DNA of 64,000 bases from Natronobeatus ordinarius. GTDB lineage: Archaea > Halobacteriota > Halobacteria > Halobacteriales > Natrialbaceae. The stretch covers positions 3,596,001-3,660,000 of the forward strand of contig NZ_CP101456.1 in NCBI RefSeq assembly GCF_024362485.1, read 5' to 3'. The notes beneath the pieces were generated by a model, which saw only the letters and a list, made by a program, of their open reading frames with translations, searched no databases and was not told where the DNA came from. Positions 1,456 to 61,773 of this stretch are shown piece by piece. The position numbers and the translations under genes were made by a program. Positions within the stretch are counted from its first letter, which is position 1; the number at the start of each line of letters is the position of its first letter.

Positions 1456-2772
1456 CTATGCCGATAGCACTCCACGCGAAGCGATTTCGCGGGATGAGGA
1501 TGGGCGGTTTACAGAGCGCCCCGACCCAGACAGGCTCACCTTCCGAACAAACGGTTGGGTTTTGCGAGTCCGGTAATTAACCGATTCAACGTCCACGTCG
1601 GCGTGTTTCGCCCACGCTCGCCACGCCACGTTCACGCTCGCGTTTCGGTCAGCGTGGTCTTGCTGAACCCCGCACGAATCATTCGTACACCGGAACCGCC
1701 GACCTTGGCGGTAGCCACGGTGTCCACAGCACGAACACGACTTCGAGTTGTACGGCGACTCAACCGTCTCACACGGAATCTGATTCCACGTTGCTTTGTA
1801 TCGAACTTGTTGCTCGAACTTGTGGAACGGGAGTTTGTGCAGACGACGGTTCATGTACGTGCCGTACTTGATGGCGTCTCGAATCCCGCTCAAGTCCTCG
1901 AACACGATGACTGGGTTCGAGAACTGTTGAGCGAACTCCACCACGACTCGGGACAGTCGGTGAAGAACCCACTCAGTGTAGCGTTCTTCTTTCTCACCGA
2001 GTTGGTGATGGATAGAGTGTTGGCCGTGTTCCTGACAACGTTTCGTGATGGTGTGGTAGCGTTGGCGTTCGGCTTTCACCGAGCCGTAATCAAGCACGAG
2101 TGTTCCGAGCGTGTCCATAGTCTCACGATTAAGAGCGGTGAGAGCGATGTTGCGCTCATTAATATCGACGCCGACAAGTGTGCCAGCATCTTCGGGTTCA
2201 GGCACTTGGACTTCTGTTTTGACCGTGACGTGTAGGTAGTACACGCCATCTCGGTACAGAAGTTCGGCCTGCCCCAACGACCATTCATCTTCGGTCAAGG
2301 CTGACTCGATGAGGTTGAGGTCTTCCGGTCGCCCTCGAAGGTGGCCTTTCACCTTCTTGTACGGCTTCGGGCTCACACGGAACTGAACGCGGTCGTCCTC
2401 GTCATCGTAGGTGAGTCGATACCCTTCAGTGTGTGCCATGACGAGGGGGTAGGCTCCTTTCTTATCCGTGGCTGGTGGCGACGGTTTGCCGACATTGGTG
2501 TCGTTTTGGTCGTGCCACCAGTTGAGGAGTTCTTTGTAGGAGTCCCACGCTTGCAGGGCTTTCCCGACGACCGCACACTTGTTGTTCCGAAGGAAGTCAT
2601 TGCGGTCAACTTCGTTCTGAATCTCAGTGCGGTTGTAGCCTTGTTGTTTGAGCCGGAGTGTGTCGTTGGCGATGTCTCGTGCAGTGTAACGGGCATCTTT
2701 GAGCCACGACTGCTCACCAGACTCGATGCAGAGCCGGGTGCGTGCGGTCTTCGTGACTTCTTCGATACCCAT
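1456..2772 (-). CDS. tnpB: TnpB RNA-guided endonuclease-like transposon protein
   Basis: A 438-residue IS605 OrfB/TnpB protein. The split RuvC-like nuclease is recognisable: first Asp in LVGVDINERN, Glu in VIVFEDLSGIRD, and last Asp in QDHADRNASVNVAWR. A four-Cys zinc finger (CSCCGHRGYRQGRRFRC) sits before the third motif. N-terminal helix-rich part and length are normal. Family members are known to use an RNA from the 3' end of the element to cut DNA; I infer the same here but see no guide directly. It diverges from tnpA. Confidence 0.88.
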   Translation of the reverse strand: MGIEEVTKTARTRLCIESGEQSWLKDARYTARDIANDTLRLKQQGYNRTEIQNEVDRNDFLRNNKCAVVGKALQAWDSYKELLNWWHDQNDTNVGKPSPPATDKKGAYPLVMAHTEGYRLTYDDEDDRVQFRVSPKPYKKVKGHLRGRPEDLNLIESALTEDEWSLGQAELLYRDGVYYLHVTVKTEVQVPEPEDAGTLVGVDINERNIALTALNRETMDTLGTLVLDYGSVKAERQRYHTITKRCQEHGQHSIHHQLGEKEERYTEWVLHRLSRVVVEFAQQFSNPVIVFEDLSGIRDAIKYGTYMNRRLHKLPFHKFEQQVRYKATWNQIPCETVESPYNSKSCSCCGHRGYRQGRRFRCTNDSCGVQQDHADRNASVNVAWRAWAKHADVDVESVNYRTRKTQPFVRKVSLSGSGRSVNRPSSSREIASRGVLSA

Positions 2773-2815
2773 ACCTTGACTATCGTATCAAATGATAATA
2801 AACGTAGGGATTTGG

Positions 2816-3214
2816 ATGGGAGACTACAGGAGTCATGCACATTCGATTAGTTTGTGTAAGTATCATTTCGTGTGGTGTCCGAAGTACCGCCACGGGATGT
2901 TGGAGTTAGTTCGAGACGAACTTGCGGAATTGTTCCAAGGAACTGCTGAACGGTTCGGTCACGATATTGTGTCGATGGAGATTGCCACCGACCACGTTCA
3001 CTTGTTCGTGGAGACTGACCCGAAATGGAGCCCTGCCGAGATTGCCAAACAATTCAAGGGCTACTCGGGACGGGCAATCCTCAAGCGATACCCAGAAATC
3101 AAACAACGGTACTTCTGGGGTAGTGGGTTGTGGAAGGATGGATACTACGTTGGGACGACTGGTGCTGTTTCCGAGGATGTGGTTCGTCGGTACATAGAGG
3201 AGACGGAACATTAA
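2816..3214 (+). CDS. tnpA: IS200/IS605 transposase TnpA (Y1 HUH)
   Basis: About 132 residues, the usual size for Y1 transposases. The HUH metal-binding motif is TDHVHLFVE (two His separated by Val). The candidate nucleophilic Tyr is in DGYYVGTTG near the C-terminus. KYHFVWCPKYRH near the start is diagnostic of the family. An ATG 24 bases further upstream is possible but would add residues not usual in the family. It cuts and joins single-stranded DNA at the terminal hairpins. Confidence 0.88.
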   Translation: MGDYRSHAHSISLCKYHFVWCPKYRHGMLELVRDELAELFQGTAERFGHDIVSMEIATDHVHLFVETDPKWSPAEIAKQFKGYSGRAILKRYPEIKQRYFWGSGLWKDGYYVGTTGAVSEDVVRRYIEETEH

Positions 3215-3401
3215 GCGAGCGTACGCGATTCACCCACGGGTCAGGTGACCCGTGGAACTCTCGCTGTTTCTTTAGAGTTTGAAACCGTGTAATCTGCTAC
3301 TGCGTCCAAAATCGATGGAGTAGCGGCGAGAAGTGCTCTCGTGCCAGAGGGTATCTTCCGAGCTGTGAATAAGCCCCCTCGAGGCGGTTCACCGGGTTGT
3401 A

Positions 3402-3866
3402 CTACTCGAGATCCGGCTCATCGAACTCGAGTGCGTCCGCCACAGCGTCAGGGAGCGCCGGACGCGGTGCTGCTTCATGGCGTTCGATTTTCTCGGTTTT
3501 GCGAGTATTCTCGTAGAGAGCGCGGGCGACTGGGAGGCCGCGCAGGTACTTATATTCGTGAAGGATTTCGACGCCCCGCTCCGTGAAGCCGTAGAATTTC
3601 GAGGGAAGATCACGTTTCCCCTCGCTTGGTTCGTACGTATAGCGTGCGAGGATTCCGGCCTCGGTTAGCGTCTCGAGTTGATCTTTGATGGCCGCTTGGC
3701 TCTTCCCGGTCATGTACTCGAGTTCGGCGAGCGACATGAGATGGGTGGGATGGCCCAGCAGCTCCTGAATGATGAGGTGGCGCGTATCCTGGGACAGCAG
3801 CTTGAACAGTTGCTGCTGTTCCGCAAACGGTCCCGAGTCGGCCGTTCCGCTGTGACTCTCGCTCAT
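3402..3866 (-). CDS. winged-helix transcriptional regulator, ArsR-like
   Basis: 154 residues. A winged-helix DNA-binding domain covers about residues 18-95: LFKLLSQDTRHLIIQELLG, then a recognition helix around KSQAAIKDQLETLTEAGIL and a wing around YEPSEGKRDLPSKFYGFTE. The rest is a charged tail. ArsR/PadR-like regulators of this form are common in haloarchaea. No metal-binding Cys motif is present, so an inducer cannot be guessed. It is divergent from the gene at 3924, with only 57 bases between them, so a shared promoter region is likely. Confidence 0.7.
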   Translation of the reverse strand: MSESHSGTADSGPFAEQQQLFKLLSQDTRHLIIQELLGHPTHLMSLAELEYMTGKSQAAIKDQLETLTEAGILARYTYEPSEGKRDLPSKFYGFTERGVEILHEYKYLRGLPVARALYENTRKTEKIERHEAAPRPALPDAVADALEFDEPDLE

Positions 3867-3923
3867 ACGTGTCTCTACGAGTAGCGACGCAATAACGGTT
3901 AGGGTCGTCCAAGTTGGTTATTG

Positions 3924-4781
3924 ATGAAAATACCAAAGTGGTTCAGAAGGGATAAGGTAGTCCAGTTTGAACCAGGACTAATGAGCGATCCGAGTCCCCC
4001 ACCGGATGCTGCAGAGATTATGACGGTGGTTCACGAAGCAGTCGGTACTCTCGAGCTCGAACCAGCGGAGAAACGCGAAATTTGGCGGTTCGCTCAACGT
4101 GAACTGCCGTACCTCTGGAGTCAACGGACGTCGTACTTTATCCTCGGTAGCTATCGTGACCCCTATCTCCGTCGTCTTCGCGCTGTACAGAACGAACTCA
4201 CGAAGCAACTCGGTGCCTACCCGTTCATCATGGGGGATCTCATCGAACTTCCAACTGAGCGGCTCAATTCGTTCGATATCATGTTCTCCTTGTTGGCAAC
4301 GTATAGCGACTACATCGTTGGTGTCTTCGAGAAAGGGAGCGGTGGTGAAGCGCCGGAATTAGGTGAGATCGATGACCCGCCGTTTTTCGACAAATCGTAC
4401 GTGCTCCCACGCGACTACGCGTGGGTGACTGACACGCATCTCGAGTCGAAACAACACGTCATCCAAGCTGCCCTCGAAATGGCGTTCACGGACGATCTGA
4501 CGGAGGCTGAGGGTCATTCGAAAATCGAATCGCTCGTTGAGAGTGCGCAAGCTACTGGTATCGATGTCGCTGAAGACGAGATCTGGGATGTTATTGGCGA
4601 GCGAACGGATGAGGAAGAGGAACCAGCGACGTACAGCTGGGTCCATCTCAACAAGTTCCGAAAATTCGAATTACACGACCGATGCTTCCCATGGGCAACG
4701 AAGGAAGAACTTCGAACTGCAGTTGCCGAGCTCCCGTCGCCGACACCACGTCCGGACTGGGAAGCGGGTGAGAGCACCTGA
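3924..4781 (+). CDS. conserved haloarchaeal protein, possible TIR-like/nucleotide-binding domain
   Basis: 285 residues from the first ATG (another ATG at 3978 is possible); family not recognised. A helical N-terminal segment (to about residue 70) precedes an alpha/beta core: strand SYFILGSYRD, helix YLRRLRAVQNEL, YPFIMGDL, then TYSDYIVGVFEKGSGGEAPELGEI. This order (strand-loop-helix, then an acidic GGE.PELGEI segment) resembles Rossmann-like TIR, nucleoside deoxyribosyltransferase and SLOG-type domains, which bind or cut nucleotides. That is inference from pattern only. The C-terminal third is acidic and helical. No membrane span. Confidence 0.5.
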   Translation: MKIPKWFRRDKVVQFEPGLMSDPSPPPDAAEIMTVVHEAVGTLELEPAEKREIWRFAQRELPYLWSQRTSYFILGSYRDPYLRRLRAVQNELTKQLGAYPFIMGDLIELPTERLNSFDIMFSLLATYSDYIVGVFEKGSGGEAPELGEIDDPPFFDKSYVLPRDYAWVTDTHLESKQHVIQAALEMAFTDDLTEAEGHSKIESLVESAQATGIDVAEDEIWDVIGERTDEEEEPATYSWVHLNKFRKFELHDRCFPWATKEELRTAVAELPSPTPRPDWEAGEST

Positions 4782-4791
4782 GTTTCGGTCG

Positions 4792-5082
4792 TCACATCCG
4801 TGACATCCTCCTCGCCGTGAATGAAGACCTCACCGTGTAGCGTGTGGGCTGTGAAACGTACTCGCCGGACAACGCTGCAGTGTCGTGCCCGTGGAGTGGA
4901 ATCGCCACCCAGTCGTCCTTTTTGGGATGCGCAAGCCGCTCGTGGTGACTCGCATACTCGATGATCCCGTCCAGCGGAATCGGGTCGTCCCGCGTCTGCT
5001 CGAGGGCGTCGGCTGTCGGCGAGTAGAGTGTCGCACTCGAGAGATCGAAGTCGCCGATTGCACTCTCGAAGAGGAGTGACAT
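4792..5082 (-). CDS. hypothetical protein, probably frameshifted near its C-terminus
   Basis: 96 residues, not recognised. The first 76 residues (MSLLFESAIGDFDLSS to AALSGEYV) look like normal acidic haloarchaeal protein. The last 20 (SQPTRYTVRSSFTARRMSRM) are basic and atypical. In another frame, the same bases after GEYV read RFTAHTLHGEVFIHGEEDV, which is far more haloarchaeal. A single-base shift around 4860 would join the two. So this is probably a broken gene, or has a sequencing error there. Confidence 0.45.
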   Translation of the reverse strand: MSLLFESAIGDFDLSSATLYSPTADALEQTRDDPIPLDGIIEYASHHERLAHPKKDDWVAIPLHGHDTAALSGEYVSQPTRYTVRSSFTARRMSRM

Positions 5083-5169
5083 ATTGGAGTGAGTTAACCA
5101 CTCGCTCCTAACTCTTCTCGTTCAGGAGAATCTGGAAAGACTCATTTCGTAGTGTCTACAATACTCTAC

Positions 5170-5484
5170 ATGACTGGCCCCGATATTGAACTGTACGAAC
5201 TCAAAGGTTGCCCGTACTGTGCCAAGGTACGCTGGGCGCTTGCCGATCTTGACCTCGACTACGAATCGCACGCTGTTCCGTCGTCACGAAGCGATCGGAC
5301 GGTCGTGTACGAAGTGAGCGGCCAGTACGAAGTGCCCGTCCTGGTCGATCGAACGAACGGGGTCAATGGTCTTGCCGAGAGTGATGACATCGTTACGTAT
5401 CTGTACGAGGAATACGGCGAAGAAGGTGACTCACCGCCTTCCGGACTCGTCGGGTGGCTCCGCACCCGGTTCATCGGTCGGTGA
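5170..5484 (+). CDS. glutaredoxin-like / GST N-terminal thioredoxin-fold protein
   Basis: 104 residues from the ATG at 5170; a GTG at 5152 is in frame but the family begins with IELYELKGCPYC. The redox motif is CPYC at about residues 14-17, followed by the cis-Pro segment YEVPVLVDR and ESDDIVTYLYEEYG, the order seen in glutaredoxins and glutathione S-transferase N-terminal domains. Likely a cytoplasmic thiol-disulfide oxidoreductase; haloarchaea use gamma-glutamylcysteine rather than glutathione, so the physiological thiol is inferred. Confidence 0.8.
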   Translation: MTGPDIELYELKGCPYCAKVRWALADLDLDYESHAVPSSRSDRTVVYEVSGQYEVPVLVDRTNGVNGLAESDDIVTYLYEEYGEEGDSPPSGLVGWLRTRFIGR

Positions 5485-5657
5485 CTCTTCTCACCGCTCG
5501 AGTCTCTCCGCCTGTCTCGACGCTGACTGGCTACATTGCTGGCAGGCTACATAAAACAGCACTGACAATCCATCAGCAAAACCTCACCGCGAATCCTCGC
5601 TACTTGAGATACACACCCGTGGCGGAGGCCGAGTGGCTACGCAGCGAGTGCGCCTTC

Positions 5658-5830
5658 TCAGCCCCCGTCGGGACAATCCTCGAGCGCGCGAAACTCCTCT
5701 CGAACGAACCCGACGTACGCGTCGACGACGCACTCGAGGATCGTTTCGCCCGCTTCGGCAGTGGCCGCTCGCGGGTCCCCGAGTCCGTCGTTCGGCGCGT
5801 GTAGGTCTCGGCGCGACGACGATCGGGACG
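5658..5830 (-). pseudogene. C-terminal gene remnant, possibly creatininase family
   Basis: No intact frame spans 5485-5870, but the minus strand reads HAPNDGLGDPRAATAEAGET and continues ILECVVDAYVGFVREEF to a stop at 5658. The GDPRxATAExGExIL pattern is like the C-terminus of creatininase/creatinine amidohydrolase proteins. The upstream part breaks frame at about 5810. I regard it as a relic left by deletion; the family assignment is tentative. Confidence 0.35.
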
Positions 5831-5870
5831 GCACTCGCTGACGACCTCAACCGGAACGTGAATTTCCTTT

Positions 5871-7253
5871 TCACGATGAGACAGCGATGTCCTTCAGGTT
5901 GAATAATTGAAGATCGTCACGCTCGGACACGGCTTCCTGTACTGATCGTGTTGCGCCACTCCGTGTGAACAACGCGTATTCCGTGTCAGCTTCGCCAGAA
6001 TCCGGCGTCCAGCGAATCTCCGATGCATGATCTTCGAGTGAGGCGAGTGCACTGTAATCAAGCGGCGCGCTAGTGAACTTGCACTCTCCCACGACCATTG
6101 TTCCGTCTGCGGTAAACCCGACGACGTCGACCTCGTGTTCTTTGTACCACCAGCGGCCGATATCGAGGAACAGCTTCTCTGGATACAGATTCGGCAGGGC
6201 ATCCTGGCAAAGCGTTTCGAACTCTTGACTGACGAAATCAGGGAGTTCTGGTTCGATAACTGCTTCGTAGGCGTCCTCACCTAAACGTTCGTATCGATCT
6301 TCTTTGCCGTAGACGAAACGGAACCAGAATCGAAAGAGGGGATCCAGGATTCGATAGCGTCCGCGACGTGACTTCGCTTTCTCTTCGGTGATCGGGACTT
6401 CCCGTTCGATGAGCCGCAACCGTTCTAACTTCTGGGTGTATGTCGAGATTTGCTTCCCGTCGATTCCCACCGTTTGAGCGATTTCGTTCGACGTCGTCTT
6501 CCCCGCGGCTATTGCGGTGAGGATCGCAAAGTACCGATTCGGGTCTGTGAGTTCGGTCCGGAGAACGTATTCTGGTTCGTTTTGGAGGTACCCTTTCTGA
6601 GAAAGCACCTCCTTCGTGAGGACTGTCCCGAGGTCCTGATTGAGATCGATACCGTCGAGATAGTATGGGACACCACCGAAAATTCCCCACGCGAAAACAC
6701 GCTCTTCGGGGGAATACTCGTCTGGAAGGAACTCTTGTGCAGCGGCGAACTCGAGTGGCCGGAGATCGAGTTTCTCGGTGAAACGCCCGTACAGAGGGCT
6801 GTTCCCAAGAAGCGTCGCTTCTTCCATCATGCTGATCGATGAGCCGACCAGAATGAGTGTTCCCGATGTATTTTGGAACCGCTGATCCCACAACCGCTGA
6901 ATGACCGAGGGAAGGCTCTCATCGGCGTCAATCAGGTAGGGAAATTCGTCGAGGACGACGATCCCGTCCTGGTCGCCGAGATACCCCAGGAGTGCTTCCC
7001 AGCTCTGCTTGATATCCGTGATCCCTGGAAACGTGTCGGCAGCGACGTCGACGAACTCGTCGAGTTGTATCTGTGAAGTAGTTTCCGTAGCCTGATAGGT
7101 GACGGCGTCGTCGCGCTCGGCAAGCGAGTGCTGGACGAGTTGTGTTTTCCCAAGGCGTCGCCGGCCGAAGATGACGACCATCTCAGCGTCGTCGGAGTCA
7201 TAGCACCTGCGGAGCCGAGAGAGCTCATCTTCCCGGTCGACGAAGCGCTCCAT
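5871..7253 (-). CDS. archaeal ATPase with C-terminal nuclease-like (DUF234) domain
   Basis: 460 residues. A STAND/AAA-type ATPase module has Walker A GRRRLGKT at 30-37 and Walker B VVLDEFPYL at about 99-107. A winged helix follows (GIDGKQISTYTQKLERLRLI). The C-terminal region has HEVDVVGFTADGTMVVGECK (about 373-392), with the D...ExK spacing of PD-(D/E)xK nucleases. This is the ATPase_2 + DUF234 architecture, widespread in archaea and often in mobile regions; its function is unproven. Three 15-bp repeats sit just upstream of its start and may be its operator. Confidence 0.75.
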   Translation of the reverse strand: MERFVDREDELSRLRRCYDSDDAEMVVIFGRRRLGKTQLVQHSLAERDDAVTYQATETTSQIQLDEFVDVAADTFPGITDIKQSWEALLGYLGDQDGIVVLDEFPYLIDADESLPSVIQRLWDQRFQNTSGTLILVGSSISMMEEATLLGNSPLYGRFTEKLDLRPLEFAAAQEFLPDEYSPEERVFAWGIFGGVPYYLDGIDLNQDLGTVLTKEVLSQKGYLQNEPEYVLRTELTDPNRYFAILTAIAAGKTTSNEIAQTVGIDGKQISTYTQKLERLRLIEREVPITEEKAKSRRGRYRILDPLFRFWFRFVYGKEDRYERLGEDAYEAVIEPELPDFVSQEFETLCQDALPNLYPEKLFLDIGRWWYKEHEVDVVGFTADGTMVVGECKFTSAPLDYSALASLEDHASEIRWTPDSGEADTEYALFTRSGATRSVQEAVSERDDLQLFNLKDIAVSS

Positions 7254-7290
7254 ACCTCCACGTCATCCCTCCAGAGGATAATACTTTCGA

Positions 7291-59171: not shown

Positions 59172-59293
59172 TATAGTACTCGTTGAAACGAGTTACACCC
59201 GGTCACAGCCGAGCGGACAGCCTCGGCCTCGTTGGCGAGGCTGCCCGCCAACGGTCGTGACCGGGTGTGCAATGACTTTCAACGGTTACTATA
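59172..59293. mobile_element. 122-bp MITE with IS630-type ends
   Basis: Left end TATAGTACTCGTTGAAAC and right end, as reverse complement, TATAGTAACCGTTGAAAG, flanked by TA. The inverted repeats continue inward (ACACCCGGTCAC on both sides), and the centre folds as a second hairpin on CAGCCTCG/CGAGGCTG. The tip matches the IS630-type element TIR (TATAGTAACCGTTAGAAT), so that transposase is the likely mobiliser. It lies between glpC and the CHAT gene. Confidence 0.75.
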
Positions 59294-59448
59294 CCGCCGC
59301 TGGATCGGCGCCGCCGCTTCCTGACGCCGAAACCGACCCCATGTCGGTCGAGTTATGGGTGGTCGATCGAACCGGACGATAACGTGTAGTAATTTCAGCA
59401 ATTGGTTTTTATTGATGGGATTTCTAACTGGACAGTCAAGGACGAGGA
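59294..59448. promoter_or_regulatory. upstream region of the CHAT gene
   Basis: Contains an AT-rich GGTTTTTATTGATGG around 59403-59417, about 35 bases before the start, as a TATA candidate, and ACGAGGA directly before the ATG as a weak ribosome site. No other feature seen. Confidence 0.4.
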
Positions 59449-61530
59449 ATGGCGATCGAGTTCGAGGAAACGACGGAGCCGGCGGGTCTCGAGGTGTACG
59501 ATTCGATCGAACAGCGGCACGTCTACGTCAAAACCCCGACTGCCGTCTCGGTAACGCCCGCAGACCAGGACCGGTTCTGTTTTCCGATCGACAGAGCGTG
59601 TTCGATTACAACGGATTCGCTCGTCTTTAGCCAGCGATACTTCGTGAGTGTACACGACGAAACCGGCACGTGTACTCAGAGCCTCGAGACCGGTGATCAG
59701 GTGCGCCTCGGCCGGGGGACGCAGTTCGTCGGGCTGAGCGGTCCGATCCAGCTGTACTGTCGGGTCGAAGAGCCTGGTCGAGTCGAAACGAGGATCGACT
59801 CGATCCACGTGACGTTCGATCGGCCCGTACCGGTGACGATCGGTGCCAGGTCGCTCCACGACCAGCCAGCCGATACGATTCAGACGCCCGACGACCCTGC
59901 GTCGATGATCCAGGCCGTCTCGTCGCTATCGTCGGTGCTCAAAACGACCTCGCCAGAACGCGCCTGGCCGACGCTTCGCGGTCATCCACCGTTGATCGAA
60001 CGGAGTGACGAACTCGAGGTTCCCGAGGAAATGGCGTCGCCGGAGACGGACGTCACGTTCACGATCCCGCCAACGTACCGTCACCTGTACACGATCGCGC
60101 CGCTCTCGTTTTACCTCGGTGCGACGATCCAGCCCGGCTCCGAACCGACGCTCCGGACGTCCCAGTTCGAGTACGCACTCGGGGTCGAAGAGCGGTTCGA
60201 AGACGACGTCGCTCGATTGCTAAAGCGGTGTTTCCTCCTCGATTGTCTGGTTCGAACGGAAGGAATGTACCAGTACGAGCTGTACGAGCGAAACCGGCTC
60301 GAGAACGTCCTTCCCTTCGATCTTGCCGAAACGTACGAGCTGTCGCTTTCGGAGCGACTCGAACGGTATCTGGAGATACCATACCGAAAGATCGAAACGT
60401 ACGTTCCGCGGTGGCCACTCACGGCACACGTTCCAGCAACACCAGAATCCGTCGAGTTGCTGCCGTTCATCGTCAACGAACTGGGAATCGTTCGCGAACC
60501 ACGGGGGCGAATCGTCGACGGAGTTACGCACGTTACGGGAAGCGAAGCGGGACTGGTTCGGTCTGCCGGTGTAGACCGGAGTCCGTCCGAGCCGTCGACG
60601 AACGATCCAGGGCCGTTCGTCGTTCCCGACGTCAACGACGAGTCGATCGAACACGCCTGGTTCGGTGATCACGTCCCGCAGACGGCCTCGAAGGCGATGA
60701 TCGAAGCCTACCGGAGCCAACTCTCCCGTGGTTCTCGGAGTGAGTCGATCGAGATTCTGCTCGTCTGTAACGACGCCCGGATGATCGACGAGCACGATCT
60801 ACTCGACCAGGCGTACGGAAAACGCGATCTCTTACCGTTCGACGTCACATCGGAGTTCGGCGTCGGCACGGATCAACTGGCCGATCTCCTGACAGACGGC
60901 GGATACGACTTCTTGCACTTCATCGGCCACGCGACGCCCGACGGGCTCGAGTGTCCGGACGGGGACCTCGACGTCAGAACGCTCGAGGAGGTCAACGTCG
61001 GCGTGTTCTTCCTCAACGCCTGTCGCTCGTACGAGCAAGGGCTCGCGCTCGTCCGCCGCGGTGCCTTCGGCGGGGTGAGTACCCTCAGCGACGTGCTGAA
61101 CGAACACGCTGTTGAGATCGGCGAGACGATGGCGAGACTTCTGAATCTCGGTTTCCCGCTCAGGGGTGCGCTCGAGATCGCCCGCGAGAATTTGACTGTC
61201 GGGGACCAGTACGCCATCGTCGGCGACGGATCTGCGGACATCGCACAGACCGAAGGTGGTGCACCTGCGATCGTCGTCGTCAACGACCGTGAAAATAGCC
61301 AATTCGAGTTCGCTATCCGCTCTTATCCAACGAAGGAGTTCAAACTCGGAACGACGACCGCGTCGAATCTTCAATCAGTCGCCGATAGACACCTCAGCCC
61401 GTGCTACACCCCCTTTTCAAGGGTCTCTGAGAAATCGTTACAGGAATATTTGACGTGGACGGGGATGCCAGTACTGACTGACGACGAGTTACGCTGGAAC
61501 GACGGAATTGGACCGATGCTGTTCAATTAG
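59449..61530 (+). CDS. CHAT-domain (caspase-like) protein
   Basis: 693 residues, no membrane span. The C-terminal third (about 455-600) is a CHAT peptidase-like domain: IEILLVCNDARMID, catalytic His494 in FLHFIGHATPDGLECPDGDL, catalytic Cys525 in VFFLNACRSYEQG, then GAFGGVSTLSDVLNE. The His-Cys dyad is in the correct order. The N-terminal 450 residues, beta-rich at first and helical around 220-330, match nothing I know and may be the sensor. No TPR repeats. It is convergent with a 44-residue membrane peptide gene. Known CHAT proteases cleave partner proteins in immunity or cell death; that role here is inferred. Confidence 0.8.
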   Translation: MAIEFEETTEPAGLEVYDSIEQRHVYVKTPTAVSVTPADQDRFCFPIDRACSITTDSLVFSQRYFVSVHDETGTCTQSLETGDQVRLGRGTQFVGLSGPIQLYCRVEEPGRVETRIDSIHVTFDRPVPVTIGARSLHDQPADTIQTPDDPASMIQAVSSLSSVLKTTSPERAWPTLRGHPPLIERSDELEVPEEMASPETDVTFTIPPTYRHLYTIAPLSFYLGATIQPGSEPTLRTSQFEYALGVEERFEDDVARLLKRCFLLDCLVRTEGMYQYELYERNRLENVLPFDLAETYELSLSERLERYLEIPYRKIETYVPRWPLTAHVPATPESVELLPFIVNELGIVREPRGRIVDGVTHVTGSEAGLVRSAGVDRSPSEPSTNDPGPFVVPDVNDESIEHAWFGDHVPQTASKAMIEAYRSQLSRGSRSESIEILLVCNDARMIDEHDLLDQAYGKRDLLPFDVTSEFGVGTDQLADLLTDGGYDFLHFIGHATPDGLECPDGDLDVRTLEEVNVGVFFLNACRSYEQGLALVRRGAFGGVSTLSDVLNEHAVEIGETMARLLNLGFPLRGALEIARENLTVGDQYAIVGDGSADIAQTEGGAPAIVVVNDRENSQFEFAIRSYPTKEFKLGTTTASNLQSVADRHLSPCYTPFSRVSEKSLQEYLTWTGMPVLTDDELRWNDGIGPMLFN

Positions 61531-61600
61531 CACTTCCAGCTAAGTGGGCAACGAGTTGTACCGACAACGAGAAGTAGCCTTTTAGCAGCGATTTGAATAC

Positions 61601-61735
61601 TTACGGACCAACGTGGGAATTGGTACCTGCAGCGACCGTTCCAATCTGGCTGAGCAGCACCATCAGGGTGAACAGGACGCCAATCATTCGGGGGTTCTCT
61701 GCGAGGTACGCTTTCATGCTGTCTTTCGCGGACAT
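61601..61735 (-). CDS. 44-residue single-span membrane peptide
   Basis: Starts MSAKDSMKAYLAENPRMIGV and continues LFTLMVLLSQIGTVAAG to NSHVGP. A charged N-terminal helix, the motif ENPRMxGVLFTL, one hydrophobic span (about 20-36) and a conserved-looking AAGxxxxxGP end. I recall many haloarchaeal peptides of this exact design (I believe filed as DUF7503). It is real by that recall, by its own TATA box and by the codon use. It lies 70 bases from the CHAT gene stop, facing it. A span of this size with a loose tail could insert in the cytoplasmic membrane. Confidence 0.75.
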   Translation of the reverse strand: MSAKDSMKAYLAENPRMIGVLFTLMVLLSQIGTVAAGTNSHVGP

Positions 61736-61761: not shown

Positions 61762-61773
61762 TAATAAAAATAT
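61762..61773 (-). promoter_or_regulatory. TATA box for the membrane peptide gene
   Basis: On the minus strand GATATTTTTATTA ends about 26 bases before the ATG, the expected distance for a leaderless archaeal transcript. The element resembles the TTTTTATTG box upstream of the CHAT gene. Confidence 0.5.

Follow-up and report, generated by a model that had tools for sequence, protein, structure and literature searches.

A conserved gene pair of haloarchaea, encoding a predicted CHAT-type cysteine peptidase and a short Gly-Pro-ended DUF7503 peptide, points to a dedicated peptidase-peptide system

Two genes lie tail to tail in the last part of the window (the whole stretch of 64,000 nucleotides of Natronobeatus ordinarius that was analysed, with positions counted from its first letter). 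Their coordinates as open reading frames confirm the arrangement already read from the sequence alone, namely a large frame for a CHAT protein facing a 44-residue frame across 70 bases. The features of the locus are the following.

59449..61530, + strand: gene for a CHAT (caspase-like, clan CD) peptidase of 693 residues, assigned from the open reading frame, homologues, AlphaFold2 fold and dyad
60928..60930, + strand: codon of His494, the predicted catalytic His (LHFIGH), with His in 99 % of 134 homologues
61021..61023, + strand: codon of Cys525, the predicted catalytic Cys (FLNAC), with Cys in 98 % of 134 homologues
61601..61735, - strand: gene for the DUF7503 peptide of 44 residues, MSAKDSMKAYLAENPRMIGVLFTLMVLLSQIGTVAAGTNSHVGP, assigned from the Pfam match (E-value 7e-22), family conservation and purifying selection
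61531..61600, no strand: stop-to-stop gap of 70 bases between the convergent genes, from their open reading frame positions; usually 0 to about 110 bases in relatives
59406..59413, + strand: TATA-like box TTTTTATT of the peptidase gene, 35 bases before the ATG
61763..61770, - strand: TATA-like box TTTTTATT of the peptide gene, 27 bases before the ATG, its position kept in relatives

The sequence-only reading had pointed out the similarity of the two promoter boxes, and the same 8-mer does precede both genes in the window. Relatives of the peptide gene, however, carry a conserved AT-rich box at the equal position without this exact 8-mer, and since it is the position and not the 8-mer that is kept, TTTTTATT is regarded here as an ordinary archaeal TATA box. 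In the window the pair has glpABC-type genes and a glycosyltransferase as neighbours. A MITE-like, near-palindromic element of 122 bases (59172-59293) closely precedes the peptidase gene and recurs at no fewer than 40 places in the genome with 86-100 % identity (40 of 114 first-look candidates scored).

The 693-residue protein found no family match in Pfam, NCBIfam or PADLOC; the Pfam CHAT profile leaves it unmatched and reaches 3 of 22 homologues at a best E-value of 0.02, which is in the twilight zone. Because the sequence match is only of this kind, the assignment to CHAT and clan CD is carried by the predicted fold. In an AlphaFold2 model built with 53 homologues (mean pLDDT 84.5, pTM 0.85), the catalytic domain is best matched by SAVED-CHAT of type III CRISPR (PDB 8tl0; Z 19.2, rmsd 2.2, 170 residues), followed by Arg-gingipain (Z 17.7, 238 residues) and separase (Z 17.3, 204 residues), with TPR-CHAT, legumain and caspases ranked lower and Z-scores of about 12-19 over 150-240 residues overall. 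The likeness to SAVED-CHAT lies in the fold of the catalytic domain; the alignment is confined to residues 429-600, and the haloarchaeal protein is partnered with a short peptide. Separase and the gingipains, both of clan CD, share the dyad and part of the pre-catalytic region, however at 12-16 % identity and with no securin, cohesin or secretion context on the haloarchaeal side. From this modelling, we propose that the large protein is a cytoplasmic CHAT cysteine peptidase with a caspase/separase fold, proteolysis being its predicted activity.

The modelled protein comprises an all-beta part (residues about 1-146), a weakly modelled linker, a region of about 200-430, the catalytic domain (about 430-600) and a beta/alpha tail (601-693). 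Everything ahead of the dyad had earlier been described as one unfamiliar region of 450 residues. The description suits residues 1-146, which have no significant match in the PDB: residues 1-154 folded alone gave none at E-value ≤ 0.001, and the best (0.045, to sugar-hydrolase beta-sandwiches) was insignificant. Of the region of about 200-430, however, a part can be aligned to separase and gingipain, where it corresponds to their first caspase-like subdomain (alignments 319/324-600), and since several structural alignments begin near residue 320 the N-terminal region is not uniform.

His494 and Cys525, proposed from the sequence as a CHAT dyad, are both present in 131 of the 134 homologues, and the dyad argues for catalysis. 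The other three comprise one truncated frame and two tandem paralogues of a single genome (Glu/Asp and Gln/Asp). These two paralogues (locus L081, genome G155), at 2526-4652 and 4704-6794, have thus both lost the His and the Cys, and are adjoined by a normal DUF7503 peptide. A divergent paralogue clade keeps the dyad and has no recognisable partner peptide; it takes in a second peptidase of the genome of N. ordinarius itself (L003, G000:C1:1590701-1592548), which has an intact dyad and beside which no partner peptide was found. An apparent loss of the catalytic His in some paralogues (HYLGA) was rejected, HYLGA being another motif and the alignment keeping both His and Cys. Asp442, positioned after the first strand, was considered as an acidic S1 residue that would confer a preference for Arg/Lys; it is common but absent in the divergent paralogues, and is therefore not relied on.

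The 44-residue peptide matches Pfam PF24335 (DUF7503), an entry with no function assigned, at 77.1 bits and an E-value of 7e-22, above the curated cut-off of 27; the open-licence literature searched held no mention of DUF7503. The description of the pair as a minimal new type is thus fair for the two genes together, but the peptide family had already been catalogued. Four sets of relatives gave pN/pS values of 0.15-0.28, indicative of purifying selection, and as these values and the Pfam match are beyond chance, the peptide is on sequence grounds a real gene. Its layout consists of a short polar N-terminus, an invariant Pro-[Arg/Lys] bordering the membrane, a single predicted span (MIGVLFTLMVLLSQIGTVAA) and a variable tail ended by Gly-Pro. 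In the family alignment of 87 sequences, the Pro is found in 87, the Arg or Lys in 86 and the final GP in 84. The conserved positions run from a Tyr/Phe-Leu ahead of the core through [His/Asn]-Pro-[Arg/Lys]-Met, Gly, Phe, Leu-Leu, Gln and Gly to the Gly-Pro end, and the most variable part is the six residues preceding GP. The charges weakly suggest an N-inside topology, in which case the tail would be outside the cell, beyond the reach of a cytoplasmic enzyme. At one locus (L079, about 2508-2797; G056:C1:486534-486796) the same DUF7503 peptide occurs as two tandem copies that differ in frame and are separated by 137 bases, with a single peptidase gene adjoining.

Amongst 293 genomes sampled from the order, DUF7503 was detected in 249 and the peptidase in 268; both were present in 249, the peptidase only in 19, the peptide only in 0 and neither in 25 (Fisher p 1e-24, with genomes treated as independent and shared ancestry ignored). 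When 295 genomes were drawn from the phylum, all of the matches listed fell within the order. The pair, conserved in about 85 % of the sampled haloarchaeal genomes and without assigned function, is near-core and vertically kept in most genera. Its members are physically linked almost everywhere: each of the best 30 peptide loci has a peptidase gene in convergent orientation no more than 1.5 kb away (30/30), and from the side of the peptidase (103 genes in 100 loci) a convergent DUF7503 gene lies within 500 bases in 93, mostly at 0-110 bases, the stop codons often abutting or overlapping. Amongst the other genes one is at a contig edge and one (L117) has a divergent GP-ended partner. Further distant families were paired in 6 of 6 loci.

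In three genomes with 8-12 peptide copies each, 25 of the 28 copies have a convergent peptidase gene of their own at a gap of 39 bases or less, and the dyad is intact in 24 of these 25 peptidases, the last being a degenerate copy. Within these genomes, distances between peptides and between peptidases are correlated (r 0.76, 0.33 and 0.88; p 0.0002, 0.014 and 0.004). The two genes thus appear, from sequence comparison, to move, duplicate and diverge as one unit, and the partnership suggested earlier from position is as real as comparative genomics can make it.

Tail-to-tail genes whose stop codons abut or overlap, as they do in most loci, could also be linked at the level of DNA or RNA only, the overlapping 3' ends providing antisense control between products that do not interact. 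We consider this highly improbable, as the peptide is under purifying selection, repeats in the array form of the partner (described below) vary synonymously, the peptidase-centred loci admit gaps as wide as a few hundred bases, and some copies are kept even when separated by about 4.5 kb (L090) or about 32 kb (Natrialba swarupiae).

Beyond the pair itself the genomic context is local, with metabolic or signalling genes as neighbours. HalX-type response regulators or HalOD1 proteins recur beside the pairs, and a DUF7504 gene is present in 31 of the scanned loci, immediately preceding that of the peptidase in Haloferax, Halobellus, Halogeometricum and some Halorussus. In many Haloferacaceae (for example L121:4200-4901 and similar loci, and L252) DUF7504 precedes the peptidase gene and a HalX regulator is beside the peptide or array gene, so that DUF7504, the HalX regulator and the pair possibly form a larger signalling unit. 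PADLOC models gave weak matches in 2 of 88 neighbours and none for either protein of the pair; no relatives were found in phage records and viral contigs, 25 haloarchaeal plasmid records carry one, and the scanned neighbours showed no evident CRISPR or cyclic-oligoadenylate system. A defence module was rejected on the absence of PADLOC matches for the pair, the 2 of 88 weak neighbour matches and the absence from viral collections. A type II toxin-antitoxin arrangement, which is a co-directional operon, does not describe genes that are convergent in nearly all loci.

These observations bear on the proposal of the sequence-only reading that the pair is a cell-death or defence module acting through membrane damage, in which cleavage would release the span to form pores and kill the cell, as with bacterial gasdermins. 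The CHAT-type caspase-like fold and dyad would suit such a toxin, as would a single span with a conserved polar Gln, glycines and an invariant adjoining Arg/Lys, and caspase-like proteases do release gasdermins in bacteria (PMC9079055). In those systems also, the gene for a caspase-like protease adjoins that for a membrane-acting partner, although here the partner is a 44-residue single span or span-less array, with no gasdermin, and the distribution is near-core. Against a toxin count the presence in 249 of 293 genomes, usually in one copy and vertically inherited in most genera, the metabolic and signalling neighbours that rarely match defence models (2/88), and the absence of matches in phage or viral collections. 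The occurrence of one genus entirely without the span, together with the near-core distribution, weakens the idea of a pore-forming death effector further; the toxin is improbable, and a cell-death or defence role finds no support here.

The genus in question belongs to Haloferacaceae, and its genomes seemed to have only the peptidase. At the exact site of the peptide gene, abutting the peptidase gene, they were found to have a tandem-repeat gene, whose product has an N-terminus without a membrane span followed by 2-14 copies of a 13-residue unit (for example MTADGNGSGISGP; consensus [MYFS][TN]ADGN..G(I/V)SGP), the last copy stopping at the stop codon. Of the 12 genomes of the genus, at least 9 carry the array. 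Its promoter region and MSE/MSKRD start are similar to their counterparts in the DUF7503 genes of neighbouring genera, and as the codons of the repeats vary while the residues are invariant, selection acts on the protein. In the peptidase tree the array loci form one clade (support 99) with a single origin within the DUF7503-bearing Haloferacaceae, the sister being a Haloferacaceae locus with an ordinary DUF7503 of tail GNGGGVAGP; this clade has thus shed the span and gained further copies of the tail.

Nine further partners, divergent in sequence, each with a single span and a longer tail in which GP is final or lies within the last residues, were also detected convergent to divergent peptidases (G251, G234 and G282), as against 0 of 374 control genes. 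Genome G251 has about 12 matches to divergent peptidase paralogues (L214, L225, L231-L238, L245-L250), most of them facing long-tailed single-span GP peptides. PF24335, of which the window peptide is a clear member, misses the span-less arrays and the long-tailed GP peptides, those of G251 being unmatched in Pfam. The partner family is therefore wider, as judged from these sequences, than DUF7503, and this breadth, with its 2-14-copy arrays and long-tailed versions, is new relative to the earlier reading. Since the array genus has lost the span and the long-tailed lineages keep GP, it is the GP tail and not the span that is the best conserved functional part. In Halococcus (L144 and L152, about 7037-7267, - strand) a frame convergent to the peptidase gene ends in ...ACTYSGP without a clear span and may be another span-less partner.

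Taken together, the observations suggest that the pair is a dedicated peptidase-peptide system not described before, for which we favour, at a probability of roughly 45 %, a peptidase-substrate module acting on the GP-ended tail. Such a module would consist of two genes, for a cytoplasmic CHAT cysteine peptidase and a dedicated partner peptide that would be its own substrate, the functional part of the partner being the C-terminal tail of about 9 residues ended by Gly-Pro, displayed once at the end of a single span or, in the array genus, repeated in tandem in a soluble product. We infer direct contact between the two products. A signal would activate the peptidase, which would then cleave the peptide, at the invariant Pro-Arg/Lys step by the membrane or else beside the GP tail, and the outcome would be a response carried by the freed tail or the freed span. 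This reading is favoured because of the dyad, the amplification of the tail, which suggests that its GP-ended sequence is the important part, and the position of the array beside the peptidase, where it is most simply a multi-site substrate whose near-identical units suit repeated cutting or binding. Against a pure substrate model stands L081, whose dyad-less tandem peptidases nevertheless keep a normal peptide, and this is the main unexplained observation. A cut at Pro-Arg/Lys also meets the difficulty that a protease would have awkward access to the invariant Arg, placed right against the membrane, and that the array form lacks this Arg; a peptide lying N-inside, as its charges weakly suggest, would count against the model by placing the tail away from the enzyme.

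L081 is more readily understood if contact can matter without catalysis, as dyad-less peptidases keep their peptide, and this brings in the main rival, in which the peptide would be a regulator that binds the peptidase and tethers it to the membrane or silences it as a pseudo-substrate, in a securin-like manner, with the array as a multivalent version. Strict co-occurrence and joint duplication are equally expected of such an anchor or inhibitor, an array would suit avidity, and separase is among the closest folds of the model. Elsewhere, however, the dyad is under strong selection, an anchor has no need of an invariant free GP end, and with the tail outside only the short N-terminus could bind a cytoplasmic enzyme. 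We regard this alternative as possible while somewhat unlikely.

The variable tail and the arrays can also be read as an exported peptide signal, the span being a signal peptide cut at a conserved Ala-Ala and the mature product a GP tail of 8-9 residues that the peptidase processes or responds to. The span is signal-peptide-like in its Leu core, its helix breaker and the small residues ahead of the tail, and it is the tail that varies; paralogous pairs in one genome carry different tails, the tandem array of 2-14 copies resembles pheromone precursors, and HalX-type response regulators and DUF7504 adjoin many pairs. The putative signal peptide is, however, more conserved than its cargo, opposite to usual precursors, the array form has no signal peptide, and an exporter or receptor was not identified, which leaves this reading quite improbable. 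A broader and rather doubtful reading is a haloarchaea-wide system of peptide signalling or processing, in which a dedicated caspase-fold peptidase would act with the GP-ended tail as active unit, borne once per membrane-anchored precursor in most lineages and on a pheromone-like tandem precursor in one genus, while paralogous pairs with different tails would coexist in one cell. Should the peptidase indeed cut the GP peptide, a new archaeal protease-peptide pathway would be at hand.

A CHAT-type protease in a pathway with short peptide signals is known in HetF of Anabaena, with PatS and PatX (PMC8406250, PMC9410556), although that is a developmental system of filamentous cyanobacteria in which HetF and the peptides are linked genetically and not as a neighbouring gene pair. 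In the open-licence literature searched, no paper brought together 'CHAT domain' with haloarchaea or Haloferax. Archaeal genomes are said to be without clear caspase homologues, and the caspase-like activity of Haloferax volcanii is very strong, is tied to salt stress and prefers Asp at P1 (LEVD, VEID, IETD) (PMC3615174). A peptidase with a predicted caspase fold is therefore of interest in a domain of life long described in this way; as the source of the H. volcanii activity it is a candidate and no more, and the Asp preference may not fit. DUF7503 matches occur in H. volcanii and the pair is present at every Haloferax locus examined, offering a concrete gene pair in a tractable model organism, to which the tandem arrays add a built-in multi-copy candidate substrate.
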